Below, one piece after another: positions 1 to 17,960 of a stretch of DNA of 64,000 bases; the stretch's first letter is position 1; each line of letters starts with the position of its first letter. Below the pieces are notes generated by a model that ran no database searches, was not told where the DNA came from, and saw only the letters and a program-made list of their open reading frames with translations. The stretch lies in the NCBI GenBank assembly GCA_028622995.1, contig JAJQJQ010000004.1:1-64000 (forward strand), read 5' to 3'. The position numbers and the translations under genes are program-made. This DNA is from Panagrolaimus kolymaensis. Lineage: Eukaryota > Nematoda > Chromadorea > Rhabditida > Panagrolaimidae.

Positions 1-198
1 AACTTCAAGTTTTAGATAAGACGCTGCGGCACAGCAAAAAAAAGTGGTTATTTTTATTGGCGTCAAGGATAGGAATAATACCAAGCATTCTTTCCTTTGA
101 TGGACCACACATATCGGACATATGATGTTTCTTAAATATAAACAAATGCGCGAAAAGTATGGTTCAGTTGTGCTTTTATTAGCTGCAATGTTTCAGTT

Positions 199-982
199 CT
201 AGGTGATCCAAGGATCTGAAGAAAATCCATAAGCTTTTGCTAAACCATGCGAGAGATGTATTGCTCTAACGAAAGCATTATTGAATAAAATTCCATAAAA
301 ACCTTTCTCATTGAGAAAAAAGTCAATTGAAGCAAAACCAGTTGCAGTAAAATCATTCGCGTTTATGGGTAATTCGGGAGATAAAATAAATGCATCTTTA
401 AGTGATTTGTGAATCACATATTCTTTAACACCCATTTTTCCATCAGCATCATCGGGTGCCGTAATAACTATTTCTTTTTTTGGATCATAAGTTATTTTTT
501 TATCCACCTTTACTTTTTTTGGTGAAGGCTCCATTGGAAAAAGTGAGGGTGGGAGGAGTAACTCGCCTTTCACCTGAATTCCCTCCTTGCGCTGTTTTTT
601 TAGGAACTTTCCTTTGGTGGTGACATTGGAACAAGTGATGGTGGAGGAGTAAGTTCATCATCCGAAGATATATTAGTTATTTCATCAAAAAGATCATCGT
701 TTCTTTTTGGACGTGCTTTAAAAATATATTCTCCAAAACTTTTTCAAGGTCATCAGAAACTGTGTAATTTGCTAAAGGCAGAGTTGATTTTACACCATTG
801 GTGTAAATGATTGTAATCTTTTCATTCATCAGCGACCAATTTTGATCGATGGCAAATGTTTTTAAAGCGCAATGCCAATTTTCACCAACAAAATTTAAAC
901 TTGAATCAAGCTGTAGAGTTATTGTATTTGATTTATCAATAGTAAAAGGAAACATAACATGTTCAGTTTTAAGTGAAAGCAT
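199..982 (-). pseudogene. Frameshifted capsid-associated gene (possible penton/minor capsid) of a Maverick/Polinton
   Basis: Two non-overlapping reading frames (982-677 and about 573-199) look like one broken gene. The N-terminal part carries WHCALKTFAI followed by a short beta-rich stretch. This resembles the start of small jelly-roll proteins encoded beside the major capsid protein in Polinton-like elements. The frame shifts near a T-run at about 705-715, and again twice between 540 and 620. A Pro-rich linker (TPPPSLVPM, then LPPSLFPM) is duplicated there. The C-terminal frame ends in a hydrophobic beta-rich segment with a stop at 199. It lies downstream of the capsid gene on the same strand, as expected for a structural gene. 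The penton assignment is inference from position and N-terminal pattern; the frame breaks are seen directly. Bases 1-198 beyond it show no gene. Confidence 0.45.
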
Positions 983-1250
983 AATCTAAAATTGCTACAT
1001 TTTAGAAAAACCTATTTTTTGCCAACTGTTAGAGAAAAATCGCGAACTATTTTTTTGTGCAAAAAAAGACCAGGAAGATTTCTTATGCAAAGAAAGAAAA
1101 AAAGAGTTGTGCAAAAGTTATGTAAGAAGATGAATTGTGTTGTGTAAAATATTATGCATAAAATCAAGACACAGTTATGTAAAAAAAAAAAGAATTTATT
1201 GGTCTCTTAACAAAGTTAAGTCAGTTTTTAAAAAAAAAAACAAGAAAACA

Positions 1251-1517
1251 TTACAAGACAGGGTTAGTTTTAATTCCCGCAAAAATACGGTAAAACATAT
1301 AAGATAGCCAACAAAGCCATCCAGAAACAAAGATTATGATTTCAGTGATAGTGGCATTGGGACCGATGAAAGTTGCTGGAGGCTGATCCATCTTGCAGAT
1401 AGGAGAGGTTTGCTCAAGATGACTGGAAGGAGGAATGGAAGAAGAAGAAGAAGGGACATTAGCGTGGATCATTTGAAGAGAGAGAAATAGGAGAGCAAAA
1501 AGAAAAATCGACTGCAT
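1251..1517 (-). CDS. Small signal-peptide plus single-TM protein between capsid genes
   Basis: This 88-residue intronless ORF begins MQSIFLFALLFLSLQMIHA, a good signal peptide or first membrane segment. A Ser/Pro-rich linker follows, then a second hydrophobic segment (IIIFVSGWLCWLSYMFY) and a short basic tail. It lies 18 bases beyond the capsid stop on the same strand, so it is probably expressed with the structural genes. I do not recognise a family. Small membrane proteins are common beside capsid genes in Polinton-like and adenovirus-like genomes, so a virion-membrane or egress role is possible but unproven. Confidence 0.5.
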   Translation of the reverse strand: MQSIFLFALLFLSLQMIHANVPSSSSSIPPSSHLEQTSPICKMDQPPATFIGPNATITEIIIFVSGWLCWLSYMFYRIFAGIKTNPVL

Positions 1518-1535
1518 CCTGGCTATGCAAAACTA

Positions 1536-2921
1536 TCAAAGTGCCATGGCTGTCGTGATCGTGCGGCTTTTATCTATCGCGAGGATCGAATTGAATTCGC
1601 CGTATACGATAAGCTGCAATCCATTCGTTTGAACAGGTGAGCTGAAGTTTAAAGTGATCGCAGTGGCGCCAATTTGTTGCATCTCAATAAATTTTTCACT
1701 ATGTTGAGATTGGAGGTCAAATCCATAAATGCAAGAATGTTTGAGGTATTTTTGCATGGAAATGCCACATTTTCCATCCACAGATTTAACCATATCATTG
1801 AAAGCACGGCCATAAATTTTTGATTGCCAGTTTAGCTTATAGGGATATGCAGGAGTATGGATGCCATTGGTAATTAAGCGAATGGATTCAAGATTGAATG
1901 TACCAAATTCAAATGGTGACATCCCAATATGCCCATAAAAAGCCTTTGCATCGACCAATACCGCAAAAAGTCTTTTGGGGAGATAGTCAGAGAACAAAGT
2001 TGTTGAGAAATCATAGCGACCTGGAGAAATGAAGAAATTCTTCATCAAACTTCTATCAAAACCATATTTAGCAACGGTGTTTGCATTAAGTTTCTGTTGA
2101 ATGGCGTAGTCAAGTTGCGGTATCAATAAATGCTGCTTTGCGTACAGCTTACAATCAAGCAGATGATACTGATACTCATTTTGGGTGTTGTTCAAAAGGG
2201 CAAAGAAATTATTATGTGGAGTCAGCTCTATGTCCACTACCATCTCGTTGAGGAGTATCTTATCTATAAAAATATTGTGTAAAAATATTGTGCAAAAAAT
2301 ATTGTGTAAAAATATTGTGTAAAAATATTGTGCAAAGAAAAAAAAAAATTGTGTAAAAAAAGTAACCCTTACTTTGTCGAAAAAATCGGCATCTAAGCTA
2401 CAGATTGCTTGGAAAGTTGAATCACCTTCAAACAATGCTCGTCTTGCTTCGAATCCTGCACCACCCATTTGACTCATTCCATCTTCAAAAAAGCCAGCAA
2501 CTTCGAGCTCCTCTTCTTTTCGATTTACTCCAATGCATAAACGACGACGTAAATATGCGTTGTATGAGTAGAGGTCATTTGAGTTATAAACTTGACGTCC
2601 ATTAAAGGAAATTTTCATATTTTTAATGAAAGTAGCTCCAAAGCCATTGATAAAGCTGACATTATCAGTGGGTGCTATTTTAACTTGTGTTTCACCAGTT
2701 TTCTTTGTGATTTTAAAGGTTGTTGCCAAATGACATTTTGAGAGATCAATGTATGCTTGACCTGAATTGATTCGAAAATGAATTGGCCACGTACCAATGG
2801 GTGTGAGTGGAATATATTCAACTGAAGATGAATGTTGAAAAGCCACTAACGTTGGGTCAGTATTGAAGAAATCAATGGAAACTGGAAGCTTTTCAGCACT
2901 TGTGGGATCTAATTTTTGCAT
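1536..2921 (-). CDS. Maverick/Polinton major capsid protein (double jelly-roll)
   Basis: The 461-aa reading frame has the hallmark N-terminal region of Polinton capsid proteins: a beta-rich stretch with YIDLSKCHL, a 'NGFGATFIKNMKISFNG' segment and a Y-x-Y-N-A-Y-L-RRR motif at about residues 115-130. These match the family's conserved 'yidL...spvNn..hslF..v.v.lNg...y.Yray' pattern. It would form the trimeric hexon-like capsomer. Residues 184-221 are a low-complexity Phe/Ile-rich insert with no capsid character. It is bounded by GTAAGG at 2372 and a TAAG at 2259, and the 114 bases are divisible by three, so it is probably an intron. Removing it gives 423 aa joining FFDK to ILLNEMVV. The start at 2921 is four bases from the next gene upstream (2924). 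Confidence 0.85.
   Translation of the reverse strand: MQKLDPTSAEKLPVSIDFFNTDPTLVAFQHSSSVEYIPLTPIGTWPIHFRINSGQAYIDLSKCHLATTFKITKKTGETQVKIAPTDNVSFINGFGATFIKNMKISFNGRQVYNSNDLYSYNAYLRRRLCIGVNRKEEELEVAGFFEDGMSQMGGAGFEARRALFEGDSTFQAICSLDADFFDKVRVTFFTQFFFFFAQYFYTIFLHNIFCTIFLHNIFIDKILLNEMVVDIELTPHNNFFALLNNTQNEYQYHLLDCKLYAKQHLLIPQLDYAIQQKLNANTVAKYGFDRSLMKNFFISPGRYDFSTTLFSDYLPKRLFAVLVDAKAFYGHIGMSPFEFGTFNLESIRLITNGIHTPAYPYKLNWQSKIYGRAFNDMVKSVDGKCGISMQKYLKHSCIYGFDLQSQHSEKFIEMQQIGATAITLNFSSPVQTNGLQLIVYGEFNSILAIDKSRTITTAMAL
2259..2372 (-). other. Probable satellite-derived intron inside the capsid gene
   Basis: On the coding strand this 114-base stretch starts GTAAGG and ends GATAAG. It consists almost entirely of TTTTTACACAATA / TTTTTTGCACAATA units. 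The same unit fills intergenic gaps of this element. Because its length is a multiple of three it reads through in frame, so retention and splicing would both give an open frame. The acceptor is not the TTTTTAG seen in most other introns here, which is the main doubt. Confidence 0.6.
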
Positions 2922-2923
2922 GA

Positions 2924-3280
2924 TTAGGTGAAAATATCTTTATATTTTCTTTTAATTGGACGAATAACAATTGGATCAGTGGTAGCTGATTCAGGAGTTG
3001 TTGTGAGAGGTGCAGCTGAGGCGGGAATAATGAGACTTGGGTCTTTATTTTTTAATTCCAACTCAGGTTTTGCTGGTTCACAATCTACTTCACAAGGATC
3101 AGCTTTTTCTGGAGCTTTTGAAGTATTGCCTTGAAAGAGATTGCTCCAATTAATTTTTTCGAAATCAATGGAAACAAGAAACATTAAAGATATGCAGAGC
3201 AAAGGAAAAACACGACTGTACTTGACCCTTAAAAAAGTAACAACTGAAGGGTTTGTGAAAAAACTAGACTTAAAAGACAT
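2924..3280 (-). CDS. Single-pass membrane protein upstream of the capsid gene
   Basis: This 118-residue intronless ORF has a hydrophobic segment at about residues 22-38 (VFPLLCISLMFLVSIDF). A long Pro/Ala/Thr-rich hydrophilic region with two close cysteines (DPCEVDCEP) follows, then a basic tail (RPIKRKYKDIF). Its stop is immediately before the capsid start, giving a tightly packed same-strand array with integrase upstream and capsid downstream. No family recognised. The compact arrangement and the basic tail fit a small virion protein; that is inference. Confidence 0.55.
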   Translation of the reverse strand: MSFKSSFFTNPSVVTFLRVKYSRVFPLLCISLMFLVSIDFEKINWSNLFQGNTSKAPEKADPCEVDCEPAKPELELKNKDPSLIIPASAAPLTTTPESATTDPIVIRPIKRKYKDIFT

Positions 3281-3408
3281 GTGATGTGACCTCGGTTAAA
3301 AAGAACAAAGTTTTTTATTCGAGAAAAAAATTAGAGAAGAAAAAAATGTACAATATTTTTGCATAACATTCTTGCATAATATTTTTTGCATAATATTTTT
3401 GCATAAAG

Positions 3409-4491
3409 TCAATTAATTATATCTGCTTCTGAAATCCATACATCATCATCAGAATGTCCAATAAAATGCACAAAGTATTCAGTTTTTCCTCTTCTTTTTC
3501 TTGTTTTTAAAATATCAATGCGATACCCGGCTTCAGGATTTTCTGCATCAAAGTAACCCATTTCCTCATTATAATAATTTCCATCTAAGATTTCATTTTT
3601 CTTATCGCCTTTTAGTTTATAAGCTGTGGGTTTTGTGGGTAAGGGTTTATCAATAGTGTAAATTTTATCACTCCAAGCAATATCGTAACCACGTTGAAAA
3701 GTTTCTTTTCTTTGTCTCACTCTAACAGTATCACCTGCATTATACTTTGGCTTTATTTTTGGACCCTCAAGAATATCAGGAACATAAAGCTTTTTCACAA
3801 GTTCAAAGGCATTTTCTTCGTTGACATCCATTGGCTTCATTTTAGTTACTCGACAAACAGTATTGTTGATTCCATCGACAATTGAGTGCAAAACGTTTAT
3901 ATATCTTTTACTGCCTTTTTCAGTAAAATAGCGATAAATTCGTGCACGCAATGTTCGAATCATTCTTTCAGCTACAGCTGCCTTGGTCTCGGTATAGGAT
4001 GAAGCAAACTTTTTGATTTTAAGCTTTTCAAAGAACTTTACCATAGCATTTGATTCAAACTCATTTCCTTGATCAGTGAATATCATTTGTGGAAGTTTAG
4101 GAGCTCGTTTAAAAATGGCCATGAAGGCTCTCTGCATTTCTAGCGTTCCTTTATTCTTTACTACTTCGACATATAGCTGACGAGAAAGGATTTCAACAAA
4201 AACGAGGATGTACTTGTATCCATTGTTATCCTTAGAAAGTTTTTGCATATCGGCTAAATCAGCTTGGCATGTATCCCAGTAACCATAGCTAATAGTTTTT
4301 AAGCGTTTGAATCGATGTCTGATGGGGCGATGAAGAGTATAGGTCATGGATTTATTTAAAAAATTAACAACATCTTTTTTCGTAACATCAGGGTTATGTT
4401 TTTTAGCTTCCTTTAACAAAATATTAACACCTCCATAAGCAGCTGTGGAGAATTCTGGATCAGTGTAAATTTTTTTCAATAAAGTATCCAT
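3409..4491 (-). CDS. Maverick/Polinton retroviral-type integrase with chromodomain
   Basis: The 360-aa protein would cut and join element ends to chromosomal DNA. The RNase H-like catalytic core is complete: D78 in QADLADM, D140 in FTDQGNEFES and E175 in AVAERMIRTLR. This gives the D,D(35)E arrangement with 34 residues between the last two. After a basic region with an SH3-like barrel feel (YNAGDTVRVRQRKETF), residues from about 322 to the end form a chromodomain-like fold (YRIDILKTRKRRGKTEYFVH, then a conserved W in VWISEADI). A chromodomain-tailed integrase is diagnostic of Polintons and some Ty3-like elements. The absence of RT/RNase H and the neighbouring capsid and ATPase genes decide for a Polinton. 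Intact frame, no intron. Confidence 0.93.
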   Translation of the reverse strand: MDTLLKKIYTDPEFSTAAYGGVNILLKEAKKHNPDVTKKDVVNFLNKSMTYTLHRPIRHRFKRLKTISYGYWDTCQADLADMQKLSKDNNGYKYILVFVEILSRQLYVEVVKNKGTLEMQRAFMAIFKRAPKLPQMIFTDQGNEFESNAMVKFFEKLKIKKFASSYTETKAAVAERMIRTLRARIYRYFTEKGSKRYINVLHSIVDGINNTVCRVTKMKPMDVNEENAFELVKKLYVPDILEGPKIKPKYNAGDTVRVRQRKETFQRGYDIAWSDKIYTIDKPLPTKPTAYKLKGDKKNEILDGNYYNEEMGYFDAENPEAGYRIDILKTRKRRGKTEYFVHFIGHSDDDVWISEADIIN

Positions 4492-4538
4492 CTCTGAAAA
4501 TTATGTTTTCTGCATAATGTTGTCTTAAAGTTGAACGC

Positions 4539-4849
4539 GCATAAAAAATTATGCAAAGACTTGTGTAAAGAAAAGAGAAAAAAAGTGCGCAAAAAATTCC
4601 CGAAAAACAACAGTTAAGTATGCAACAGCTGCAAAAAAGTTGTGCAAAAAAGTGTCTCACTTTTGCGCAAAAAATGTTCTTTCTCCCGATAATTTTCCGA
4701 TAAATTCCCGAAATACAACGCTTAAGCATACAAACTAGTGCAACTCAAAGAGAAAATGAACAATTTTTTGTAAATCAGCAAGAGGATGCGCGCATGCGCG
4801 CGTGTGTGGAGAAAGGATGGACGCGACTCCCCATCAGGTTCTGTCCGTC
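4539..4849. repeat. 311-bp direct repeat, copy 1 (upstream of integrase)
   Basis: About 98% identical to 7509-7820 in the same orientation. It starts with GCATAAAAAATTATGC and ends with GGTTCTGTCCGTC. It contains two related 'ATTCCCGAAA.ACAAC.' segments and a GC-rich palindrome GCGCGCATGCGCGC near 4787-4800. It ends 48 bases upstream of the minus-strand integrase start, so it may carry the promoter. Small ORFs reading through it (4460-4729) are not credible genes. Confidence 0.9.
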
Positions 4850-5484
4850 ATAGTCTATGAGAGTGACCTATTGTGGCACACATATCCATGAAGAAGAAAA
4901 AAAAAATCTTGTTTTTAAAAAATACATTACCTCTCAGGGGTAAATGACATTCATCAAAAACAAACAAACTTAAAAAAATAACAGGAAAATCATGCAATGA
5001 GTTTCATTCATTCTTTAAATTTTTTGTTTCTCATCTCCCTTTTTTGAATATTTTATCTTTATCTTATTTTATTTTTGTTTTACTTTTTTTGAAATTGCGG
5101 CCATGAGCGCATTTATGGAAATAGAAAAATTTGCATCTTCTCATTAGTTTCTAATCGTCGCAAGCATAAGTGCATCATGACGTTTTTTCTTTCATTCCAA
5201 AAAATTGTTGCAGAATACTATTCAAAAATGCTTTTAGCGCAAGATAAAGAAAGGGTTATTAAAGTACAAATACGCATAAATAATAAAATTGAAGTAAAAA
5301 GGTAGCGAACATGAATAATAGAAAAAAAGAAAGATGCGCATTCGTCTGAAGCAACTAGAAAGAAGTTAAAAAAAGAAAAATTTTATTTTATCGTTTTTAA
5401 ACATAAAAAAGAAAAAGCATCCAAGCATTGGAAGAAGTCAAAATTATAAATGAAATTATAAATGAAATTTAGCAAAAAAAAAAA
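4850..5484. other. AT-rich intergenic stretch, no gene seen
   Basis: A/T homopolymer-rich DNA between the direct repeat and the 3' end of the basic-protein gene. No supported ORF, RNA gene or long repeat. A short duplication 'ATTATAAATGAAATT' occurs near 5445-5470. Confidence 0.6.
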
Positions 5485-5913
5485 TTAAAGTTTCCATTTT
5501 TTTGTGATTGGTACTGTAAAAACGGGCCGAGCTGCTGCAACAACTGCTTTTTTGGCGGGAGTTTTTCTAACTATTTTCTTAGCTACTTTATATGCAGCTT
5601 TCTTGACTTGTGGTTTTCTTTCATATACGCGTTTGGTTGGTCGACTGTATAGTGGGGTTTTATTATATGTTCGATTAGGAAATCCAATTGAAGGAGGAGG
5701 TAATGAGGTGATGGCGGTTTGACGAAGGCGACGATCGTGTGTTTCAGGAATTTGTTCATTGGCAACATCAAAATGACGTTGACGTTGAAGATATTCTTGA
5801 TTTTCAAGATTTTTAACCGTGGCATTGATTGTTTCATTGAGACCTGATTTTGATTTTTCTTTCTCAACTAGGTTGTTATATCGCGAGACGGGTATAGCTA
5901 TCAGCTTTTGCAT
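5485..5913 (-). CDS. Highly basic protein, candidate virion DNA-condensing protein
   Basis: This 142-aa intronless ORF has a mixed N-terminal half (PVSRYNNLVEKEKSKSG, then a helical Gln/Arg-rich part). The C-terminal third is very Lys/Ala-rich and resembles histone H1 tails or adenovirus-type core proteins (KKAAYKVAKKIVRKTPAKKA). The lysine-rich tail would bind and compact DNA in a capsid, which is an inference from composition. The start at 5913 faces the plus-strand PAZ ORF start at 5947, leaving a 33-base divergent gap that must hold both start regions. Confidence 0.6.
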   Translation of the reverse strand: MQKLIAIPVSRYNNLVEKEKSKSGLNETINATVKNLENQEYLQRQRHFDVANEQIPETHDRRLRQTAITSLPPPSIGFPNRTYNKTPLYSRPTKRVYERKPQVKKAAYKVAKKIVRKTPAKKAVVAAARPVFTVPITKKWKL

Positions 5914-5946
5914 GATCTAAAAAAGCTACTTTTATAGCAAAAAATA

Positions 5947-6276
5947 ATGGGAGTTCCATTGATCGATCACATTCTCGAACGCGGTGGACATCGACTTCCT
6001 TATACAAAATTAAATTGGCATCTATGGGATGCTAAAATAAATGTTCGCGCAATGAAGAAATTAAAGGCACGAGAACTTCCACGTGGCTCATTCACTCAAA
6101 CAAGTGCTAGATCAACTCATGCTCTTGGAGGCTTCTTGAATGTCACCATCCAACAATACTTCTTCGTCAAGTATCGAATCATTCTTAAATATCCACATTT
6201 GCCCCTCTATCGAGTTTTGCTTGAAAATGGTCAGCAAGAATACTATCCTATTGAAGTCCTTGAAATTGAACTTTAA
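5947..6276 (+). CDS. Free-standing Argonaute PAZ-domain fragment carried by the element
   Basis: This 109-aa intronless ORF has the order of an Argonaute linker followed by a PAZ core. The N-terminal part (PLIDHILERGG, then a LKARELPRGSFTQTSARSTH segment) corresponds to the linker and PAZ entry of nematode Argonautes. Residues 67-109 have the PAZ C-terminal signature: VTIQQYFFVKY, ILKYPHLPL, then QEYYPIEVLEI. In Argonautes that region builds the pocket gripping the small-RNA 3' end. MID and PIWI are absent, so it cannot slice or bind a 5' end. It is the only plus-strand gene in the structural block and has an uninterrupted frame. It may be an acquired host fragment acting as a small-RNA decoy or dominant-negative partner. 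A chance relic is possible, but the frame is clean. Confidence 0.8.
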   Translation: MGVPLIDHILERGGHRLPYTKLNWHLWDAKINVRAMKKLKARELPRGSFTQTSARSTHALGGFLNVTIQQYFFVKYRIILKYPHLPLYRVLLENGQQEYYPIEVLEIEL

Positions 6277-6448
6277 AAGTATTTTATCGTTTTAACGACT
6301 TTTCAATTATGTTGCAATAAAAAAAGTTTATATTTATTTCATAAAGGTTTTACACAACAAAAAAAGTATTACACAATATTTTTGCATAAGAATTACATAT
6401 TTTTCTGCACAAAAATAAAAAAAGTTTTACATAATAAAAAAAGCACAA

Positions 6449-6745
6449 TTAATTTTTAAAGCTTTTAATGGCCCATCGAGACACACTTTGAAACACTTTA
6501 AGAGGAACTTCTTTAGCTATTTTTCGAGCAGCTTTTTCAGTTCGAGCTCTACCGAATTTCTTGATGATGGGAGCACAAGTTTTTTGACGATTACAATAAA
6601 AGGATTGGACAGGTTTTTTAGCAGTAAAAAAGTATAAAAAGATTTGAGAAAGGAACATAAGCTCCTCGGAATTTAATTTCATAATCTTGGTGATAGATTT
6701 TGATTTTTCAATGCTTCTGAGAAGTTTGGCTTGATCGAAACTCAT
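6449..6745 (-). CDS. 98-aa basic protein overlapping the packaging ATPase gene
   Basis: The ATG at 6745 overlaps the ATPase stop in ATGA (6742-6745), a virus-like translational coupling or a compact polycistron. The protein has a hydrophobic stretch in the middle (ELMFLSQIFLYFF), then CNRQKTC and a basic C-terminus (RTEKAARKIAKEVPLKV). No family recognised. The position just after the packaging ATPase suggests a structural or packaging accessory role, which is inference only. Confidence 0.6.
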   Translation of the reverse strand: MSFDQAKLLRSIEKSKSITKIMKLNSEELMFLSQIFLYFFTAKKPVQSFYCNRQKTCAPIIKKFGRARTEKAARKIAKEVPLKVFQSVSRWAIKSFKN

Positions 6746-7395
6746 ATTTTGTATATGATTGTGTCTTCGTCGGGGAGAATATTGGTAGTAAGACGTAAAG
6801 TATTACACGATTTGGTGTGGACGTTTACCATTAAGTAGCCGTATTTGTGCGAAGTTGAGTCGTCGTATGCTTTCATAAACTCGTTCACTTTTCCTGCAAA
6901 AATTTGTACGCCGAAATTACGAAGCTGATTTCTGAAGGCGGGTGATCGGAGAAACACGAAATAATGAGAATTTATCCTAGGCGTTCGAAGTTTAGGCAAG
7001 AATAAAATTTGTGTGAGAAGCAGAACGCAAATTTGCTGATGATGGCTTTTCTTGGTGAATAAAATGTCAAGAAATTCTGAATCCATCTCATTGACGAGAT
7101 CATCAAGTATTAGCAATAAAGGTTTAGGCATAGAATCCAAAAGCTCATCAGATGGAACTCCATAATGCGTTTGTATTTTTAGTTGTTTTAGCTCATCAAC
7201 ATATTCATGATATTCCCCAAAGCAATATAAAACAGTTGCAGGCGCTGGCTCAAATAAACCCTCTCTTTGCTTGATGAAAGATTTTAGCAATGTTGTTTTT
7301 CCGCTGCTACTGGGGCCAGAAAAAATACAGCAACTGGGGATGTGTATTTTAAAATCACTCCCCGAAAAAACAAAATCCGACTGTTCGTCAACCAT
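6742..7395 (-). CDS. FtsK/HerA-type genome packaging ATPase (A32-like)
   Basis: The 217-aa P-loop ATPase has Walker A at about residues 24-31 (GPSSSGKTT) and a strong Walker B (LLLILDDLVNE) at about 93-103. A glutamine-ended strand follows (VLLLTQILF), the sensor position typical of the HerA/FtsK class. In Polintons and other double-jelly-roll viruses this enzyme pumps genomic DNA into preformed capsids. Its length fits the short A32-like form. Intronless; starts 114 bases downstream of copy 2 of the 311-bp direct repeat. It overlaps the next gene by four bases. Apparently complete and intact. Confidence 0.9.
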   Translation of the reverse strand: MVDEQSDFVFSGSDFKIHIPSCCIFSGPSSSGKTTLLKSFIKQREGLFEPAPATVLYCFGEYHEYVDELKQLKIQTHYGVPSDELLDSMPKPLLLILDDLVNEMDSEFLDILFTKKSHHQQICVLLLTQILFLPKLRTPRINSHYFVFLRSPAFRNQLRNFGVQIFAGKVNEFMKAYDDSTSHKYGYLMVNVHTKSCNTLRLTTNILPDEDTIIYKI

Positions 7396-7508
7396 AATAC
7401 TTATAGCAACTAAAAAATTTACAGATTCTTCTTTTTTCTTACATAGCTTTTTTTTCTGATCAGGGAAATATCCCTATGTGACCTTTGAGTTGACATAATT
7501 TTTGTTAT

Positions 7509-7820
7509 GCATAAAAAATTATGCAAAGACTTGTGCAAACAAAAGAGGAAAAAAGTGCGCAAAAAATTCCCGAAAAACAACAGTTAAGTATGCAACAGCT
7601 GTAAAAAAGTTGTGCAAAAAAAGTGTCTCACTTTTGCGCAAAAAATGTTCCTTCTCCTGATAATTTTCCGATAAATTCCCGAAATACAACGCTTAAGCAT
7701 ACAAACTAGTGCAACTCAAAGAGAAAATGAACAATTTTTTGTAAATCAGCAAGAGGATGCGCGCATGCGCGCGTGTGTGGAGAAAGGATGGACGCGACTC
7801 CCCATCAGGTTCTGTCCGTC
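7509..7820. repeat. 312-bp direct repeat, copy 2 (upstream of packaging ATPase)
   Basis: Near-identical to 4539-4849, differing by a few substitutions and a one-base A-run length change. Both copies sit immediately 5' of a minus-strand core gene (integrase or ATPase), which suggests a duplicated promoter cassette rather than a random insertion. No target-site duplication is obvious at either edge. Confidence 0.9.
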
Positions 7821-8004
7821 GACGCAATGAAAATACACACAATGGTTTGAGAAAAAAATATGTTTGCTGAATCAACACCTTTGATCTCACTTACATAAAT
7901 TTTTATTACGGTAACAAAAAAAAGCATCGTTAGAATGGAAAAGCATTGAGCAAAAGAAAAGAAAAAATGTTAAAAAGTTTAGGAGATGCAACAAGGGATT
8001 TATA

Positions 8005-8764
8005 TCAGAGGTATGTTGAATATGCTGTTAAAGGCCGACTGGTTGGAACGATGAGATCTCCATGGTGCCAGGTTTTACACAATTTACATTCAAATTCGTT
8101 CGATTCATTGAACACTAACTCGTAAATGACATTCTTTTCATGAACATGATCGCAGGGGAAAATAACGTGGGGTTTTTTGGAGTGCCCATATGCTTCTTCA
8201 AATTCATCAATGAAGTTATTAGTTTTTGGTTGCATTGTATTGTAGCTGAAAAAAAGAATGTCAAAAGAGAGTTAATAAAAAAGCGTAAAAGCTTACCCAT
8301 GATGGGGCATAACCAATTCATAAGAATGGAATGTATGACATTTGATGCATTCAAATTCATAATTTGCATTTAATTGTTGACCCCAAAGGCTGTGAAACGA
8401 AGTGATGTGATTACACGGAAAGATAATCGCACTTTTTTTCGAGCATCCATATTGCTTTTCAAATTGGATCAAAAAATCAACAGTTTTTTTCTGATATGGG
8501 GGATATCTATAAAAAATAAGAAAGAGGGTAAAAAAAGAAGAAGGGAAAAGCTTACCCATAAAACGCTGCAGGATCAATGTTTTGAGCTTCTTCGAGTTCA
8601 AGTTTTTCGAAGAGAGCTTCCATCTGATTATCAGGAAATGGCTCGCTTGTTTTTGGTGGTGATGGAATAAACCAATCGAATAAGTCACCAGGATCCTCAA
8701 GGGGTGCAAACAAATCCTCGCTTTCTTCTTGTTGAGGATCGGGTTTGACAAAGTTGGAATCCAT
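8005..8764 (-). CDS. Three-exon protein with two tandem Cys/His zinc modules
   Basis: Exons read 8764-8556, 8506-8297 and 8245-8005, giving 219 aa. Exon 1 encodes an acidic region (QQEESEDLFAPLEDPGDLFD). Exons 2 and 3 encode homologous modules: F-x2-[FE]-E-x2-YG-x-SKK-x3-IFPC-[ND]-H, then after about 20 residues FEC-x2-C-[HK]-T-[FW]-H. The C-x-H ... C-x2-C-x3-H spacing should bind one zinc per module. Both introns are phase 2 after a GG, and exon 2 is 210 bases, so the module was duplicated as a symmetric exon. I do not recognise the family. An acidic start plus zinc modules would fit a transcription or protein-interaction factor, but that is inference. Confidence 0.7.
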
Positions 8765-9181
8765 TGCAAAACTGTAAAATAAAAAAGTTTTTAAATTAAA
8801 AAAGAGCAACAAAAAAAGTCACGATCAAAATGTAAAGAAAAAAGAAAAGAATGGAGTTGATGCTGTAAGTTTGCGATAAATAAATCCACATCTCTGAGAT
8901 ACCATAAAAAAGGTCAAAGGAGATCGCTTTCAAAAAAAGTCAACAAAAAAGGTGCCGAAAAAAGGGTCAAAAAAAGAGTATTGCATAAGTGGCGACAAAA
9001 GAGATTGACTGAACTTAAAAATGTAAAACAGAGATTATCGATGTATTGTTTTAGCTACAAGGAGAAAAAAAGCAGTTGCCGTGTTCGAGACTCTCGATAA
9101 AGAAGAATAATAATGAAGCCCCCCTCTTGACTTTCATTGTTATTTCGAGTGTCACCTTTTTATTTTCTTTAAGGACAAAAA

Positions 9182-9701
9182 ATGTCTCGAACACGGTAAG
9201 TTAAAAATGCCCTTAAAAATTTAATTTATCAGTTGATTTTATTTAGTGCGGCTGTTGGCAAACTTGTTATTGTAGAAGAAAATACAGATGGAAGTTTATT
9301 GCGGACTTTACCTATCATTTTTAGTGATTATGAAGCTAAAGATGACGAATTCACCCTTCTTATTCATCGTACATTGAAAAAAGCAATGAATAAAATAAAT
9401 AAAGGGCTTAATCCAAATGGCTACTTTCGGTAAATCGTTTTTTCTTTCATTTTTTCTTCATATTTTTAAAAACTTTTTTTATAGTTACAACATTTGGAGT
9501 GAACATCTTGGATCAGAATCTTTCCCCATGCAAAATCCACTTCTTATTCCAATGACAGGCGAGGATGTTTTTGCGCGAATATTGAACCTATTACAGTCCG
9601 AAACTCATCATGAAATTTTTCGTGACCGCCTTTTAATTGATCTAATTTATGTTCGTCCTCTCGAGAATGAAAATAACGAACTTGACGATGACTTAGAATA
9701 A
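9182..9701 (+). CDS. Unknown 137-aa three-exon protein
   Basis: Exons 9182-9195, 9247-9429 and 9485-9701 join in frame with GT-AG introns of 51 and 55 bases. The start follows directly from the tiny 14-base first exon (MSRTR). The protein is mixed alpha/beta with IVEENTDGSLLRTLPI early, an amphipathic helix (HRTLKKAMNKINKG) and an acidic tail. No signal peptide or membrane segment, and no family recognised. Exon 1 and its splice donor form the right arm of a 13-base inverted repeat whose other arm is at 9079-9091. It is divergent from the zinc-module gene, with the 417-base gap between them as shared upstream region. Confidence 0.6.
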
Positions 9702-10014
9702 TTTTGATTTTATGTTAAAAAAACTTTTTATTTGCGGGTACATGCTTTGATTAAAATAAAAAAAATACATATAAACTAACTGATTTTTTTGTGAAAAAAA
9801 GAAGCTTACACAATTTAAAAAAAAAAAGAAAGAAAGTGATTTTGCATAATATGAATTAGGGGAAACTACATAAAAAAAGCATAGTAAATTAGACACGCAT
9901 AACATAAAAAAGAAAAAGTTATGCAGGAAAAGTTATGCAAGAAATATTGTGCAGAAAAAGGGAAAGAAGGGGTTATACAAAAAATAAAAATAAAAGATGT
10001 TAAAAAAGTAAGAT
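9702..10014. other. AT-rich spacer with the TTGTGCA/TTATGCA satellite
   Basis: Between the 137-aa gene and the F-box gene 3' end, with runs of TTATGCAGGAAAA, TTATGCAAGAAAT and TTGTGCAGAAAAA around 9895-9960. No gene supported. Confidence 0.6.
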
Positions 10015-11060
10015 TTATGTTTCACTGCAATTGATTGGGAAATTAAGCTTTGATGCTAGCATGTGAAGCTCATATACTGCTTCCATTTTTTGTTGACGGC
10101 TGGCACGGTGTAAAAAACTAACTTGTACACGAGTAGGAAATGACATAATTCTCTATTAGTTTTACATAAATATTTTATAAAAAAGAAGCCTTTTCTTTTA
10201 TTATAAAAAAAATGCATACTTTTAAGGTTCTGACAAAGGGTGTCACACCCTTGATAGGAATTTCAGTAAGTGAAAGTTCACGTAAAAATTTATGTCTGCC
10301 AAGATGTTTCCCGATATAGTGATAATAAAGAGGGCCGTAATAGAAACCTGGAGAATTGAGCCTAAAAAAACCATTTACCCTCAAAAAAAAAAAGAAAGAG
10401 AAAAATAAACTAACTTAAAAACTCTTACGCTTTGGCAACTTTCGAGGATGCTTTCAAAACATGCACTGATGACACATTTTTTAAATTCGATTTTTTTCTG
10501 ACAGTTTACACGAACTTTTTGAATAACTTTAGGTGTTACATCACACTTATCGAAGATTATTTCTTCATAAAAAAGATGATCTGTAAGCATTTTTTCCAAA
10601 CCTTCAAGAAGTACTTCTTCAGGGCAGCGTATGAACTTTAAACAGGATGGGAGAATTATTTGATGAGTTTCCAATACTTTTTTATCATCTTTGAAAAATA
10701 ACCCAAAATGAGCATTCTGAAAATGAAATAGAAAAAATCATAAAAAATTTTATGAATATTAAGATTTTCTTAAAAACCTACTTTCTCATCGATCATCTTC
10801 CAGCCATATCGGGTGTTGTCAAAAAAAATAAAGCGCATTCGTTTAGACGAATGAGAAAGTGCAACCGCATTTTCTAATGAGGGAATATGAGCATGAATAT
10901 TAAAAAGTACTTCGTTGGGTAAATCAAAAATATTTGGTGCTGGTTGAGTAGATTCATATAATTTAAGAAAGTGTTGTTCTTCCATCTCTTTCTCACGGAT
11001 ATATAAATTTGCAAAATGCTGGTCAAAACCACATTGAAATTTTTGAATGTTTCGCTCCAT
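10015..11060 (-). CDS. F-box protein (286 aa, four exons)
   Basis: Exons 11060-10782, 10716-10415, 10361-10220 and 10152-10015 join in one frame. The F-box lies at about residues 44-80 (FDLPNEVLFNIHAHIPSLEN, then a conserved SHSSKRMRFIF). This motif binds Skp1 and places the protein in an SCF ubiquitin ligase as substrate adaptor. The remainder has leucine-rich-repeat-like strands (FLRELSLTEIPIKG) such as nematode F-box proteins use for substrate binding. An alternative donor at 10428 gives a shifted frame, so I chose the one at 10414, which keeps the LRR-like frame. Nematode genomes have large F-box families, so this may be a host gene or cargo of the element. The TTGTGCA satellite on both sides favours cargo. 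Confidence 0.75.
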
Positions 11061-11444
11061 AGCAAAAAATAATAAAGCAACAGCAACCGATGATGATGAA
11101 TGCTTGGTATCAAAAATGATTCTTCATTGAGCGGATAAGCATCACCAGAGAAAAAAAAAGTTGTTTTTAATGACGCAAAGTTTTTGCGGCAAAAGAAAGA
11201 CAAAAGAAATAAATCTGCATATTTGTTTATTTTTAAAAACATGGATAATCGCAACAAAAACTTTTTTTGTCACTATCTGTTGCATTCCTTTTGAATGCCG
11301 AAACAACCAGATGTGACCTCATAAGTGTGCCTTTCTTTTTTCTTTGTTAGCGATACACCCGAAAAATAAAAAGTCATTTTGTCTTTTTCATTTTTACTGT
11401 AACCCGACGACATATTTTTTTCTTCTTCTTTTTTTGTAGAAAAG

Positions 11445-12136
11445 ATGGAAAATTTGGAAAGCCTTAATGGTCAACCTGAAATCATGCATCACTTTATTGA
11501 TGAAACGCTCAAATCCCTCAAGCCTGAAGATTTCATTTTTATTGAAACTGCATCTGAAGTTGACAATTGTAAGTTCTTGCTTGTTTTATAGGCTAAAAAA
11601 AATATCCTTCTTTTTTTAAAGTTTTTATTAATATTTCCGATGGCCCCATAATCGAAATTGATTTCATTTTTCATTGGCTTGATAATTTTTCGGAAGAAGA
11701 TTTTAATTTTTTGAATGAAAAAAACATTGAAGAAAGTGGGACTTTTTTTTTGACTCTTTTTCTTATAAACTAATTATTTTTCCATTAAGGCTTCAATGAA
11801 GTTCTTGATCAAGAAGAAGAAGAAGAAACTACAACGAATGCAAATATTTCCCACGAACCTCCAAGATTGGAAATGTGTACAGCACCTTTTGATGAAGAAA
11901 CCGAGGGTTATGATGTCATAGCTAAAGTCTCATGCGAGCCACCCGTATTAAAGAGAAATGGTTCTCCTCTTTCACCTAACATTAAAAATAAAAAGGCAAA
12001 AATTTCCGATGATGAAGCTGATGAATCTTCCGATGAAGATAATATTGTCGAAGAAGAAATCAACATCAAAATATTTAAATTTGATCGAAGCAGCTCCAAG
12101 AAATTCCACTTCAAAACATTACCCCGCAAAGTTTAA
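11445..12136 (+). CDS. Acidic three-exon protein with nuclear-type tail
   Basis: Exons 11445-11568, 11622-11735 and 11790-12136 give about 194 aa. The N-terminal part is hydrophobic/acidic (FIFIETASEVDN, IEIDFIFHWLDNFSEEDF). The C-terminal half has Glu runs, a KNKKAKISDDEADESSDED segment that looks like a nuclear localisation signal followed by a CK2-like acidic cluster, and a basic end (FHFKTLPRKV). No family recognised. Composition suggests a nuclear regulatory or chromatin-interacting protein, which is inference. It is divergent from the F-box gene, with 384 bases between the two starts. Confidence 0.6.
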
Positions 12137-12496
12137 ATTTTTTTCTTATATAGCATTTGCACAGTTTCTTTACACAACTTTTCTGCATAATATTTTTGCA
12201 CAATGTTACTAGGCATTTTTCTCTTTCATAATTTTATTTTATATGTAATGTTCTTTTTATGTTTTTACACAATTTTTGTTTGTGTATAAATTTCTTTCCA
12301 TAACTTTAATAAATTTTTTTATTTCAATAAAAAAGTAAATGCAAGAAAAAACATAAAAAGGCAGAATAAAAGAAAATAGATAAGTGATAAAATTCATAAA
12401 ATACCGTGAAAAAAAAATAATACCCAACAACTGCATAAAATAATAAAATAAAATAAAAATCAAATGGCCGGAAAATAATACGTAGTCGATAGAAAT
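12137..12496. other. Convergent intergenic spacer with satellite motif
   Basis: Between the 3' ends of the acidic-protein and J-domain genes. It holds ACACAACTTTTCTGCATAATATTTTTGCACAATG near 12,170-12,205 and AT-rich DNA with no supported gene. Confidence 0.6.
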
Positions 12497-13909
12497 TTAC
12501 ATTTGGGCAATATGGATGACATCACTGTTAACTGTTGCTTTTTTCCATTTTGCATAAGCGTCAGTATATTTTGGGAAGTTGTTGATCCCTCGGAAACCAT
12601 GCCATTGTGGAATGATGACATCTTTTCCATCTTCGTGTTGATACATTACAAGATCTTTATAATGGTTCTTCATAACCCATTGATAATAATCCATATGTTT
12701 TGAGGGTTTTTTATCGAGCACCTTTGTATCTAACAAATACTCGCTAAAAATATTAATTTATTATAAGTCCGAAGAAAATTCAGCCTCTACTTACCGATAA
12801 TGCTTAAAACATATCAATAATGTTGGTTCAATTTTATCTTTACCATTCCTATACCGTTTTACACCTGGATTTCCTTCAACAGACTCATCAGATGTAAGAA
12901 CTACATCATCATCTTCAAACTTTGATTTCTTGTTGCTAATTTTAGAAGGAGCTGAAGAGGGGACTAAAATGAGTTGAATATAGATCGTAATATAAAAATA
13001 TTTAAGTGATTTACCCTTTCTTTTTACACCATTAGAAGATGATGCCTTTGCTGGAGAAGGCATAGGGCTTAGAGTAATAACGGGTGGATTTTTAATAGGC
13101 TCTTCTAAAATGCCAATGAATGCAGGAGGGTATTTTTTGAGTAGTTTACTACCATGCTTTTCAACTAATTCCTCCTTATAATATGACGCATCTTCAATCT
13201 CTTTTGATTTGATTTTGATATCCTTCTTTTGTCCAAGAAGAAGGAGATCATGATCATATTGCTTTTGCGAATCCCTTTCAACTTCGGAAATAAGATCATT
13301 CAATTTTCGAATTTTCTCATCTTTTTTGAGGGCAGAATCAGCTTTCATCTTGGCTAATTCAGAATTATATTCTTGTAGTGCTTGTTTCTGGTATTTTTTT
13401 GAATTAGCATATAGTATGGTTCCATATTCCTTCACATCCTCTTTATATTTTTTACAACGATCTTCAAAGGTTGAACCACGTTGTGAATCGTCATCTCGGA
13501 GACTGGTACTTCCCCGCTTGGTTTTAGGAGCATCTTGAGCAGAATTAACAGGGAGCTGAAGTGCCAAAGGACCAGAATTAACTTCAGATGTATCAACATG
13601 TGGAGCGTTCATACCAGTAGCAGCCTCATTTTGGATATTTTGCTGACGCTCTCTTTCGTTAGCAAAAAACTCTTTGAGAACGTCCCAATAACGCTGAGTT
13701 TTCTACAAAAAAATGTAAGAATTCTTATAAGACTAAAAAATGTATATTTAACAAACCGTGATTTGAGAATTAGAGCCACCCTTGTCAGGATGACGAACTA
13801 AGATCATTGCTTTATACGCGGTGCGAACAAGCGCTTTAGTAGCTCCATAATCACATTTAAAGTGATCAAATGCAGCAATGAGGGCAGGAGTTAAATTTTT
13901 GTTTTCCAT
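12497..13909 (-). CDS. J-domain (DnaJ-like) protein with coiled-coil and Lys-rich linker
   Basis: Exons 13909-13757, 13702-13015, 12963-12795 and 12743-12497 give 418 aa. Residues 1-70 form a J domain with the invariant HPD inside VRHPDKGG, preceded by the basic helix II (ALVRTAYKAMIL). J domains recruit and stimulate Hsp70. A charged helical region follows (about 115-200, probable coiled coil: ELAKMKADSALKKDEKIRK). Next come a Pro/Ser linker, a nuclear-type basic/acidic patch (SNKKSKFEDDD) and a Trp/Tyr-rich C-terminal domain (HMDYYQWVMKNHYKDLVMY) that I do not recognise. J domains occur in several DNA viruses as well as hosts. Its location among element genes and the satellite makes capture by the element plausible. 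Confidence 0.75.
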
Positions 13910-14537
13910 AATTCACCAGAAAAAAAGAGAAATATTTCAGCTCAGATAAAAGTAAGAATGAAGGAATGAAAGATTTTCCATAAATCCGAGAGCTTCAATG
14001 AAGCACCTCCTTCTTGCATAAATACTTATGTAGAACCCCTAGCATATCATATTTTGCATAATAATCCTCTCAACGTATAACCTCTGCTTTTCATATTTTC
14101 AAATCTGGCCCTCGCACCATAATTTGATACTGCCGAATAACTGCCATCATCCCTCTCACCATAAAAATGTATACGATGTATCAAAGTTTGTTTGACCTCT
14201 GTCTCAGATGCAATAACAATCTCAAGTTTTTATTGATTATGAGTGCAAAAAAAGTTGCCAAAAACAATCCCAAAAAAAGATGCAAAAAAAAAATCACAAA
14301 AAAAAGTTTCAAACGAATTCAGGTTTATTACATACAAAAACAAACAAACTTTATGTACAACAACAACATACAATACAAACAAAAAAATGATACAAAAACG
14401 TATGCAAAAACAAAAAGAAAAAAGTTAACAAAATTTAAAGGCAATATTCAAAGACATAAGCAGCACCAACAATTCATCACGAATAGCTCTTGAAACTAAA
14501 TCAGCTGTATTCTTTGCATTACCTTGACGCCTAAGCT
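13910..14537. other. AT-rich, low-complexity stretch, no gene
   Basis: CAAAAAA-rich low-complexity DNA. The 108-aa plus-strand frame at 14,167-14,493 is a Lys/Asn/Gln run caused by composition and is not counted as a gene. Confidence 0.6.
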
Positions 14538-14696
14538 TTAATCAAGCATTAGAAATATTATAAGCATGAAGAGGAAGCCAGAAAGAGCTGTGAAAGTTGC
14601 ACGCATATAATCTTCATCAGGAATACCAGCTCCACGAAATTCATCCATTTCATCGGCAATCGTAATAGAAAAAGTCGTAAAGTTGTTATTTAGCAT
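14538..14696 (-). CDS. Tiny membrane protein or terminal exon (52 aa)
   Basis: An ATG at 14696 just after a TTTTTTTCAG acceptor opens a 52-residue frame: acidic first half (IADEMDEFRGAGIPDEDYM) then a hydrophobic segment (LSGFLFMLIIFLMLD) and stop. It may be a whole gene whose 5' UTR is spliced, or the last exon of a longer gene. No family recognised. It is one of three small membrane-protein frames in 14.5-16.3 kb. Confidence 0.4.
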   Translation of the reverse strand: MLNNNFTTFSITIADEMDEFRGAGIPDEDYMRATFTALSGFLFMLIIFLMLD

Positions 14697-15031
14697 ACCT
14701 GAAAAAAATAACAAAATGAGTCTGTTATCGAAGCAGAAACAACAAAATCAAATGGTAGAAAAAGCCACGAAAAAAAGAGAGAAGAAAGACACAAGTATTA
14801 AAGAAAACAAATATTTATTAAAAAGCAACAATCAAAAAAAGGTCATACAAAATCACGAAAACAATGAAAAAACATAACAAAAAAAAGGCGTGCTGGAAAA
14901 AAAAAATTGAATCATTTGAAAATCCATCAGCAGCAGCAACAAAAAAAGAAGAAGAGCATGACCATGTAGTTGAAAACTTCTAAAAATTTGAAAAATGAGA
15001 AAAGTAAAGAAAAAAAGTAAAAATGAACTTA

Positions 15032-15343
15032 CTATTTGAATTTACCGAGATAAATCACGGTATTGATGAGATTGCACATAGCAATCGCAATCAAACAAAC
15101 TACCATACAAATGAGCCAGTTGAATTGAGGTGAAGACCATTTGAATGAAAAAGAGACATCTTCTTCGTCCATTTCTTCTTCTTCGTGAACTTCAGGATCA
15201 ATGTTGATTGCAGCATTTTGCGGAGCTAAACGTCGTCTATCATCATTACCATCACCGCCACCATTACCGGCGTCACCTGCATTCCACTGAAAAAAGAGAA
15301 AGTTAGTTGAATGAATAAAAATGACCAAAAAATAAACATACAA
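15032..15343 (-). CDS. Small acidic protein with C-terminal membrane segment
   Basis: The 103-aa frame has a hydrophobic start (YVYFLVIFIHSTNFLFF), a Gly/Asp-rich stretch with DDRRRLAPQN, a strongly acidic region (EVHEEEEMDEEDV) and a C-terminal transmembrane helix (FNWLICMVVCLIAIAMCNLI). A TTTTTTCAG at about 15,294 could be an acceptor, in which case the first 19 residues would be intronic and an upstream exon supplies the start. I could not find one that stays in frame. Unknown function. Confidence 0.4.
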   Translation of the reverse strand: MYVYFLVIFIHSTNFLFFQWNAGDAGNGGGDGNDDRRRLAPQNAAINIDPEVHEEEEMDEEDVSFSFKWSSPQFNWLICMVVCLIAIAMCNLINTVIYLGKFK

Positions 15344-15918
15344 AGTTCAACATGATTGAAGGTTTTTGAAAGTCGAAAGCTGGATGAAATTCTTGAAGGT
15401 TTTGAAAACGTTTGAAAAATTGATTGAAAGATAAACAAATCTAAAAACAAAGAAAAGGGTTAAAAATATTGCATCATAGCGCATAGTTTTCACGCAAGTA
15501 CAAAAATATTTGAAGTCATTCGAAAAAAAATCATGAAAGTTGAAAAAACGTTGTTGAAAAAAGAAATAAATGAAACTTCTTTACAAAAAAAAAACGACTT
15601 CAAACAAAAATATTTGAATAAGGCTTCGTTGCCAATGGGCAATGAATTTTCGCTTTGAAAACAGAATTTTTAGCGCCAAAAAAATGTTTCACTTGCTTTT
15701 GCTTTTCAAAATTTTCAATAATCAATGTTTGTCAATATTTTTCATGTTACTCATCTTTCTTCGTCCACAACTTTGCGTGCTTTTACATATGATTTCCATC
15801 TTACTTATTGCTTTATTTTTTTCAGATTTACATACAGTTCAAATTATTATCAAGCTTCAAACGGAATCAAGCCATCAAACAGACATCAAGAAATCTTGCC
15901 AAACTTCCACCTTTCAAA

Positions 15919-16316
15919 ATGCTTTCAAAAAGCTTACTTCTTTTGGCTGTTCTTGCTATGGCAAATCTCTTGGGTATTAGTGGTGTTTCAATAGGACTTG
16001 TGACTGGTATGCTCGTATTGGGTATGTTCTTTTGTTATTGCTTTCTTATAAATAGAATCGTTTTTAGGCTTTCACATTCATAAACTTCGAGGAGAAAATA
16101 TTCGCCTTCGCTCCAGCAATCATCAACTTCATCATCATGTTGCTTACCTAAACCACCACCATCACAAGCGAATTGTACGTGGTAAAGCTGTTGTTAAGCA
16201 GTTTGTTCAAGAAATTATGAAACGGTTTAGTAAGTTTTTGTTTTTTATCTGCATTTCTTTGTACTAATAGCTTCATTTTTACAGGCTTCAAGCGTATTCA
16301 ACGAACACGTCAATGA
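15919..16316 (+). CDS. Small TM protein with His-rich basic tail
   Basis: Three exons (15919-16021, 16068 to about 16230, then about 16286-16316) join in frame, giving about 98 aa. A long hydrophobic helix (LLLLAVLAMANLLGISGVSI) is followed by a cytosolic or nuclear basic, His-rich tail (NHHHHKRIVRGKA, then FKRIQRTRQ). The start was placed at the ATG directly before the hydrophobic helix; the frame is open further upstream. No family recognised. Confidence 0.5.
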
Positions 16317-16965
16317 TCTCTGAATTTGTTCAACGTCATCTTACTCTTCATTGTTTTTATGGTTCAAATCAATCCTTCAATTTTGTATGATCCTTTTTTT
16401 ATTAATGCTTTTTGATGATTACTAACATACATATTATTTTCAGATAAATGTTTTCCCTCTTTCGAATGATTCAAAAAATGATGATGCTGATGTTTCAAAT
16501 GCTTCAATGATTTTTTTTCAGAGCCTCTTTTTTTGTTGTTATTCGATCCCTTTTTTGTTTTGTTTTGTACCCCATTTTTGTCTTTATAATTTTTTTTGTT
16601 GTTGTAACTTTTTTTATGATTTGAACCTATTAATAAATTACTTTGTAAATGTAAAAAATGTGTTCGATGTTATGTAATAAGGAGAGGATTAGCAAAAGCA
16701 AGAGAAAAAAATGATGGCAAAAGCGCAAACTTTTTTTTAGCGAAGAAAAAAAGACAAAAGAAAAAATGATGGCAGACGCGCAAAGCTTTTTTCTTCGGTA
16801 AAGACAAAAGCAAAAAAAAGAGTTGCTTGCAAAAGACGAGAAAAAAAGGAGGAGTTTTTTGTTAATCGTTTTTCTTTGCAAATAAAAAAAGTTGCGATAC
16901 CCCAAAAAAGAAAATATTGTTTTAGACATTTCTTCATTCAGGCTCGTTTTTATTGCTGTTGGAAA
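16317..16965. other. T-rich and AAAAAGA-rich stretch, no gene
   Basis: T-rich run (16,440-16,620) then an imperfect duplicated segment with GAAAAAATGATGGCA-GCGCAAA at about 16,705 and 16,760. No gene supported. Confidence 0.55.
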
Positions 16966-17353
16966 ATGTGGCGAATCCGTAGCCCTCAATTTATAGTTTC
17001 ATTCTCTCTCTGCAATTTCTGTAAAGATATTAATCACAGCAAAAGAGATGAATACGTTGAATTCAATAAAGATGGATCGGCCATTATTAAATTTCGATTA
17101 TGCAAGATGTGCATAAAACGAAATTGTATTGCAAAGGAAGCAATGGGTTAGTTTCTTTTTTTAAAAAAAAATAAATTTTGACGAGAATGAATGGATATAT
17201 TTTTTAGATCAAAAGGTTCCAATCGAGAAGGGCGAAAGACTCAATAAGCGTCAGATGGAGGCAATTTTGGCGGACGAGTATACACCAGAGCAAAAAATGG
17301 CACATTTAGAATACCTGAACGACAAAAAAATTCGCGATGCAACTCTCGAATGA
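16966..17353 (+). CDS. CxxC zinc-binding protein (two exons)
   Basis: Exons 16966-17146 and 17208-17353 give 108 aa. Two cysteine pairs about 35 residues apart (CNFCKD and CKMCIKRNC) suggest a zinc ribbon. The C-terminal part is a charged helix (LNKRQMEAILADEYTPEQKM). A TTCATTCAG acceptor at about 16,940 opens the same frame, so an upstream exon may exist. I do not recognise the family. It is the last of the small spliced genes before the satellite-rich boundary at about 17.7 kb. Confidence 0.5.
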
Positions 17354-17689
17354 GCAGATCATACTTGCTCCACTCAACATCAACAACCCATTCAATTACA
17401 CCATCCACTCAGCAACCCAACCATTACCCGCAAACCCAGAAGCAGTATCAGCAACGCAAGCATAAGTCATTTTAATTTATTTTCTCTCCTTCCAAAACTT
17501 TCTTTTTTTGTTTCATTTGCTTGCAAAAAGCTTTTCTTTCTTTTCCATCCATCAAAAAAAAAATTACTCTGCTAACCTTTTTTAATTTCTGCTTTACTTT
17601 TAAATTTATTGATTGAACTCTTCTTTTTATTGATTTGCTTGTGCTTCTTTTTTTATACATGCAATTGATTGATCATAAACATATTTATT

Positions 17690-17960
17690 CTTACACAACT
17701 TTTTTATTTTTTGCATAACATTATTACACAACTTTTTGCATAACTTTTATGCATAACAATAGATTTGATTTTGCACAAAAAAAAGTCCGAACTGCAAATA
17801 CAGTAATCGAACTGCAAATTAAGCCACGCCCCCTTTTCCCCTTCTCTTATTGGTGGATTGAAAGCCACGCCCCCTTTTCCCCCTTCTCTTATTGGTGGAT
17901 TGAAAGCTCCGCCCCTTTTTTTGCACAAAAAAAGACCGAACTGCAAATTAGGCCACGCCC
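17690..17960. repeat. Satellite plus GC-box/CCAAT-like tandem repeat
   Basis: Four TTGTGCA/TTATGCA-type units (17,690-17,780) are followed by a tandem unit of about 46 bases containing GCCACGCCCCC, a pyrimidine tract and TTATTGGTGGATTGAAA (copies at about 17,820 and 17,865). A partial third copy (GCTCCGCCCC) and a second 'CCGAACTGCAAATTA..GCCACGCCC' unit end at about 17,960. This is the last place the satellite is seen going rightwards, so it may mark the element edge. Confidence 0.65.

Follow-up and report, generated by a model that had tools for sequence, protein, structure and literature searches.

The element and its PAZ-only gene

The window analysed here, a stretch of 64,000 nucleotides from the nematode Panagrolaimus kolymaensis (assembly GCA_028622995.1, contig JAJQJQ010000004.1, positions 1 to 64,000, forward strand), begins inside a Polinton (Maverick) element that carries a gene for a lone PAZ domain. 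This gene (5947..6276, plus strand), recognized by ORF reading, Pfam, phmmer against PDB and a genome search, runs from ATG to TAA without intron and encodes 109 aa, exactly the clean ORF described in the initial annotation, with an AATAAA 3' of its stop (6316-6321). Head to head with it, the start codons only 33 bp apart, lies a small basic protein gene (5485..5913, minus strand; no Pfam match at the curated cut-off and a 31% relative in L035). The other flank is occupied by a second small protein gene (6449..6745, minus strand; no Pfam match and a 37% relative in L035), followed by a packaging-type ATPase gene with a P-loop (6742..7395, minus strand), which gave only weak AAA matches in Pfam (best E 0.0049) and has a 35% relative matching Pox_A32 (E 1.6e-4). 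The position first proposed for the ORF, between the basic-protein and ATPase genes, was therefore right for the adjoining basic gene but not for the ATPase gene, from which it is separated by the gene at 6449-6745. A retrovirus-like integrase gene (3409..4491, minus strand; PF00665, rve, E 8.2e-9, above the curated cut-off) and another which we take to encode the major capsid protein (1536..2921, minus strand; no Pfam match), containing an intron-like in-frame stretch, complete the named genes, all of them on the strand opposite to the PAZ gene.

The Polinton part within the window (1..17991) was delimited by comparison with a copy on contig C6. It finishes at 17991 in a right terminal inverted repeat (17449..17991), 95.9% identical, in inverse orientation, to the left end of the C6 copy, and at window position 20000 only diverged matches are left (best 90%). 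Identity between both copies is 99.7% over window positions 1-4446, 100% over 4447-7773, and 99.99% over 7774-14401. Because its contig (C3) begins inside the element, the window lacks the polymerase side, which takes up about 7.4 kb in the C6 copy. Further left, the C6 copy contains polymerase pieces that resemble, at E 1.2e-16, an ORF with a PF03175 match (4.7e-12); the ends of the copy are inverted repeats of about 565 bp, the same 6-mer is found on both outer sides (a 6-bp target duplication), and by coordinates it spans about 25.4 kb. Given the integrase, the polymerase, the inverted repeats and the target duplication, the PAZ-carrying element is a Polinton, as the description of a Maverick-like element had it.

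Two other features of the element deserve mention. An F-box-like ORF at 10770-11060 (minus strand; E 0.0013, below the curated cut-off) is perhaps further cargo. The intron-like stretch of the putative capsid gene is built of short TTGTGTAAAAATA-type repeats (window 2240-2345, 3347-3406), similar stretches interrupt, by eye, the polymerase frames of L058, and all 33 DNA matches listed for the TTGTGTAAAAATA-type stretch fall on contigs with a window-type element. That these stretches behave like introners is a guess.

The PAZ domain was assigned by Pfam (PF02170) to residues 48-107 of the 109-aa protein (E 4.6e-6), with a score of 27.0 bits, slightly below the gathering score of 28.8, and a match restricted to profile positions 53-102 of 123; the window copy represents a shortened PAZ form. 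Phmmer against PDB retrieved 27 distinct sequences at E<=10, every one an Argonaute (best E 2.7e-5), in agreement with the PAZ identity proposed at the outset. The suggestion of an Argonaute linker ahead of the core had to be abandoned, as that stretch aligns with a shortened N-terminal part of the PAZ domain itself. The absence of MID and PIWI from the ORF stands: the protein ends with the PAZ domain, and Pfam found no PIWI in the PAZ ORF or in 16 other window ORFs (17 scanned). Two AlphaFold models of the PAZ-only gene, from 9-row alignments, had a pLDDT of 44 each, too low for them to be used. Judged by its sequence, 5947-6276 is a genuine gene for a stand-alone domain of Argonaute type, and its recurrence in the genome (see below) places the ORF beyond chance.

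Copies and placement in the genome

Searching the genome with the window ORF gave 81 rows, the first 35 of which (E<=5e-10) we have counted as PAZ-only places. Sixteen of these encode an identical, intact protein (window included), one is 88% identical with a stop (C740) and the other 18 are relatives at 42-49% identity, so that the ORF is indeed present in other copies, as the initial annotation expected. We inspected 24 sequences among the remaining 46 rows; one of them, L025, shows a PAZ followed by an Argonaute linker domain (Pfam), and by similarity the remaining lower rows are taken for host Argonaute exons. Polinton genes accompany 34 of the 35 PAZ-only places, in the sequence inspected there or no more than 14 kb away on the contig; only C42 (L016) differs, showing no Polinton genes in the 9 kb inspected and a PAZ piece that looks broken. 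An ATPase match lies close by at all 16 identical-protein places. A 3.3-kb comparison of seven of the other 15 with the window showed an identity of 99.88-100%, suggestive of recent spread. Several copies on small contigs have frame breaks in the neighbour genes and none in the PAZ gene; the breaks may be assembly errors. An intron seems to be present in the relatives of two lineages (L012/L013 and L014/L015).

A single fixed place for the PAZ gene in all elements was considered and rejected, since it occupies at least three different ones. In the window type it sits between the genes at 5485-5913 and 6449-6745; in L014, L015 and L017-L022 it is found on the upstream side of the ATPase gene, in divergent orientation; and in L010-L013, L023 and L024 it is beside a TBP-like gene, L012 and L023 also showing polymerase pieces. 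Both kinds of PAZ gene are present, one of each, on C28 and on C425, about 14 kb apart, perhaps within one element. The gene may also be missing. L035 has relatives of both window flank genes, about 200 bp apart, without PAZ between them, and at the window-type locus C51 (L036) the PAZ gene is absent in the 2.4 kb inspected. None of five other ATPase lineages (representatives L031-L035) has a PAZ within about 2.5 kb of the ATPase gene, nor was there a PAZ row within 14 kb of them in the genome search, which could miss a very diverged PAZ. As none of these five sampled lineages carries it beside the ATPase gene, the PAZ gene is an accessory gene of Polintons.

Some peculiarities of the copies were noted along the way. 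L020, L021 and L022 (C24 near 512 kb, C415 and C806) contain two PAZ-carrying elements arranged as a near-perfect palindrome, their PAZ genes turned towards one another. The window-type element is found on seven contigs of 15-17.5 kb (C675, C689, C722, C724, C738, C740 and C761), and several other copies are situated near contig ends (C3, C27, C28, C76, C20 and C52); this could reflect an assembly broken at repeats, subtelomeric copies or extrachromosomal forms. The TBP-like genes of the Polintons (PF00352, E 7e-24 to 3.5e-35) are located at L023:3432-3992 (minus), L024:5093-5653 (plus), L012:3620-4162 (plus) and L010:5045-5521 (plus); the best 13 of 20 TBP-like matches have a Polinton ATPase match no further than 14 kb away, and searches of window-type pieces detected none.

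A PAZ-only family in other nematodes

The window ORF alone had no match in the protein database. A nine-member profile retrieved 52 proteins at E<=0.1 (two already in the profile), in a search that admits proteins of 0.55-1.75 times the query length, where full Argonautes cannot appear. PAZ-only matches came from Meloidogyne graminicola, M. enterolobii, M. incognita, M. hapla and Aphelenchoides avenae, together with many from metagenomes or unnamed contigs; the Meloidogyne relatives are labelled 'PAZ domain-containing protein' in public databases. Two of the Meloidogyne PAZ-only proteins were without a close match in the genome studied here. IMG/VR scans with the PAZ and ATPase profiles gave no matches. 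We built an alignment of 50 rows (A9) from 45 of the 52 database proteins (P0046-P0052 were dropped) and five rows of the own genome. Pfam recognizes PAZ at E<=0.01 in 46 of the 50 members (best 1.9e-11), and the 50-row profile covers almost the entire PAZ of AGO2 (6ra4, profile 5-128 to chain 7-132, E 2.2e-13). Argonautes make up 29 of its 32 PDB rows at E<=1, the three others being weak (E 0.47-0.7). With hhalign, the family aligned to a host Argonaute PAZ from the same genome with Prob 98.3 (E 2.6e-14), a smaller family profile reached Prob 98.0 against the host PAZ, and a TBP control gave Prob 0.1. The best match, by PDB phmmer as by the family profile, is the Argonaute PAZ.

In a tree of 70 rows (P0040, P0042 and P0043 were dropped) all 51 PAZ-only rows fall in one clade, which also takes in three of the 19 host rows on a long branch, with support 65.9/83; the columns were aligned to the profile of the family itself, something that may favour the grouping. 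A separate tree of short PAZ pieces was too weak for use alone. This grouping makes a single origin of the PAZ-only family likely, with only moderate support.

The 3'-end pocket

The best-kept part of the family corresponds to residues with which AGO2 holds the guide 3' end. Across the 50 rows, the equivalent of R315 is R in 49, that of H316 is H in 48, and that of Y338 is Y or F in 49. Passages of PMC5896489 assign recognition of the guide 3' overhang in AGO2 to H271, H316, R315 and Y311, and binding of the 3' hydroxyl to Y338. PMC5389725 puts Y311 near the guide's 3'-end nucleotide, and PMC4504477 counts F294 among the AGO2-miRNA contacts. At the Y311 position 44 of the 50 rows have H and five, those of the own genome, have Y, and the family alignment has a deletion at the F294 segment. 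At the R315 and H316 positions the window copy has K and Y, as in human AGO1. The kept equivalents of R315, H316 and Y338 fit a predicted 3'-end binding, and the lost F294 segment, the H at the Y311 position and the shortness of the window form speak for a changed site; as a whole the residue pattern points to a site partly kept and partly lost.

At the other end of the protein, a Trp occurs among the last 12 residues of 31 of the 50 A9 rows (among P0002-P0045), often as final residue behind an acidic tail, and in none of the five own-genome rows. This tail might be an Argonaute-hook-like motif, and in the relatives it may add docking to Argonaute.

Selection

Omega was estimated from Nei-Gojobori counts with our own script, using non-independent pairs from other lineages; the window-lineage copies encode the same protein and so yield no omega. 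Five closer PAZ pairs gave low values: 0.19 and 0.22 for L010/L023 and L010/L024, 0.03 for L023/L024, 0.13 for L017/L020 and 0.09 for L018/L020. For L017/L018, dN was 0.006 and dS 0. More distant pairs have omega 0.42-0.59 at dS > 1.1, near saturation. The script also returned values for other element genes: integrase, 0.03-0.04 in the two pairs involving L020 and 0.27 in L017/L018; ATPase, 0.18 in one pair; TBP-like gene, 0.17-0.30. The omega of 0.03-0.22 in the five closer pairs indicates that the diverged PAZ-only relatives are under purifying selection; the dN/dS comparison foreseen in the initial annotation thus came out far below 1 in diverged lineages, the window lineage lying outside it.

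Possible roles of the PAZ-only protein

The PAZ domain of Argonautes holds the 3' ends of small RNAs, and nematodes silence transposons with large Argonaute families. Our proposal is that the element captured a host Argonaute PAZ, a domain that keeps residues holding the 3'-terminal phosphate and hydroxyl in AGO2. With these residues and with no MID or PIWI for guide loading or slicing, the protein could serve within the small-RNA pathway as decoy, shield or competitor, and host silencing of the element would weaken in consequence. Such interference with silencing is the likeliest role that we infer, and the claim that the protein binds host small-RNA 3' ends, or otherwise competes with the Argonaute PAZ, to the benefit of the element stands for us just short of an even chance. 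We counted in its favour the family profile lying on the whole AGO2 PAZ, the hhalign match to the host domain, purifying selection, the Polinton genes beside 34 of 35 places and the kept equivalents of R315, H316 and Y338; absence beside the ATPase gene in the five other lineages is also as expected of a gene for host interaction. Counted against it were the deleted F294 segment and mostly H at the Y311 position, which alter the 3'-end site, the shortened window copy under the gathering score, and omega values that come from pairs of other lineages, with the distant ones near saturation. The broader statement that nematode Polintons have turned a piece of Argonaute on their host, through a selected PAZ-only family that spread in Polintons and related genomes and grips small-RNA 3' ends by an RH...YY site, we put forward more tentatively, as doubtful but well worth considering.

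Placement of the gene bears on a different reading, which we consider unlikely, in which a small binder of nucleic-acid 3' ends would work for the element itself, in replication, packaging or gene expression, and not against host silencing. In most types the PAZ gene is head to head with core genes (ATPase, TBP-like or basic protein), as a co-regulated element gene might be, and the TBP-like genes tell us that these elements do carry expression genes; yet its absence beside the ATPase gene in all five sampled other lineages and from C51 argues against a core function, and it changes place between lineages. Somewhat less probable still is a domain that no longer binds RNA and acts as a protein-docking module or in some other role invisible in sequence. 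The F294 deletion, the H at the Y311 position and the Trp tails of 31 of the 50 rows (absent from the own genome) would suit it, but the equivalents of R315, H316 and Y338 are precisely what the family has kept best. A functionless relic of a host Argonaute, carried along by the element, is very improbable and was rejected on selection and family spread: the window copy is short and below the gathering score, C740 has a stop, C51 lacks the gene and the C42 piece looks broken, but the omega of diverged lineages contradicts decay, PAZ-only proteins exist in other nematodes and 16 intact places encode the same protein.

To return to interference with silencing, how Polintons persist in nematodes is, to our knowledge, an open question, and a PAZ-only protein that is under selection and encoded by a transposon gives a counter-silencing candidate that is concrete and testable. 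If true, PAZ would be shown to work apart from Argonaute and Dicer.

Comparison with known systems

We know of no described small-RNA decoy made from an Argonaute domain and of no VANC protein with a PAZ domain. Literature searches joining Polinton or Maverick elements with PAZ or Argonaute listed no paper whose title or opening lines of abstract mention a gene of this kind; the nematode survey of Jeong et al. (2023) may describe one. Nearest in concept are VANC of the Arabidopsis VANDAL elements, (PMC5735166, PMC10398659), and viral suppressors of RNAi, which share with the Polinton PAZ an element-encoded protein as candidate counter to host silencing; in the Polinton PAZ that function is putative. 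The element itself resembles nematode Polintons in its integrase, polymerase pieces, ATPase, inverted repeats and 6-bp target duplication, and differs from them by the PAZ-only gene that it carries; a term search found neither PAZ nor Argonaute in the main text of PMC11071308. The PAZ proteins of Meloidogyne and Aphelenchoides avenae, known as database entries, belong to the same PAZ-only family by profile and tree, although they have longer tails, many ending in Trp. With the Argonaute PAZ (PF02170; human AGO1/AGO2) the family shares a whole-domain match to the family profile and the R315, H316 and Y338 equivalents; unlike it, the Polinton PAZ stands alone, has lost the F294 segment, mostly has H for Y311, and in the window form is reduced to 109 aa. 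We regard the domain as known, its architecture and its carrier as new.
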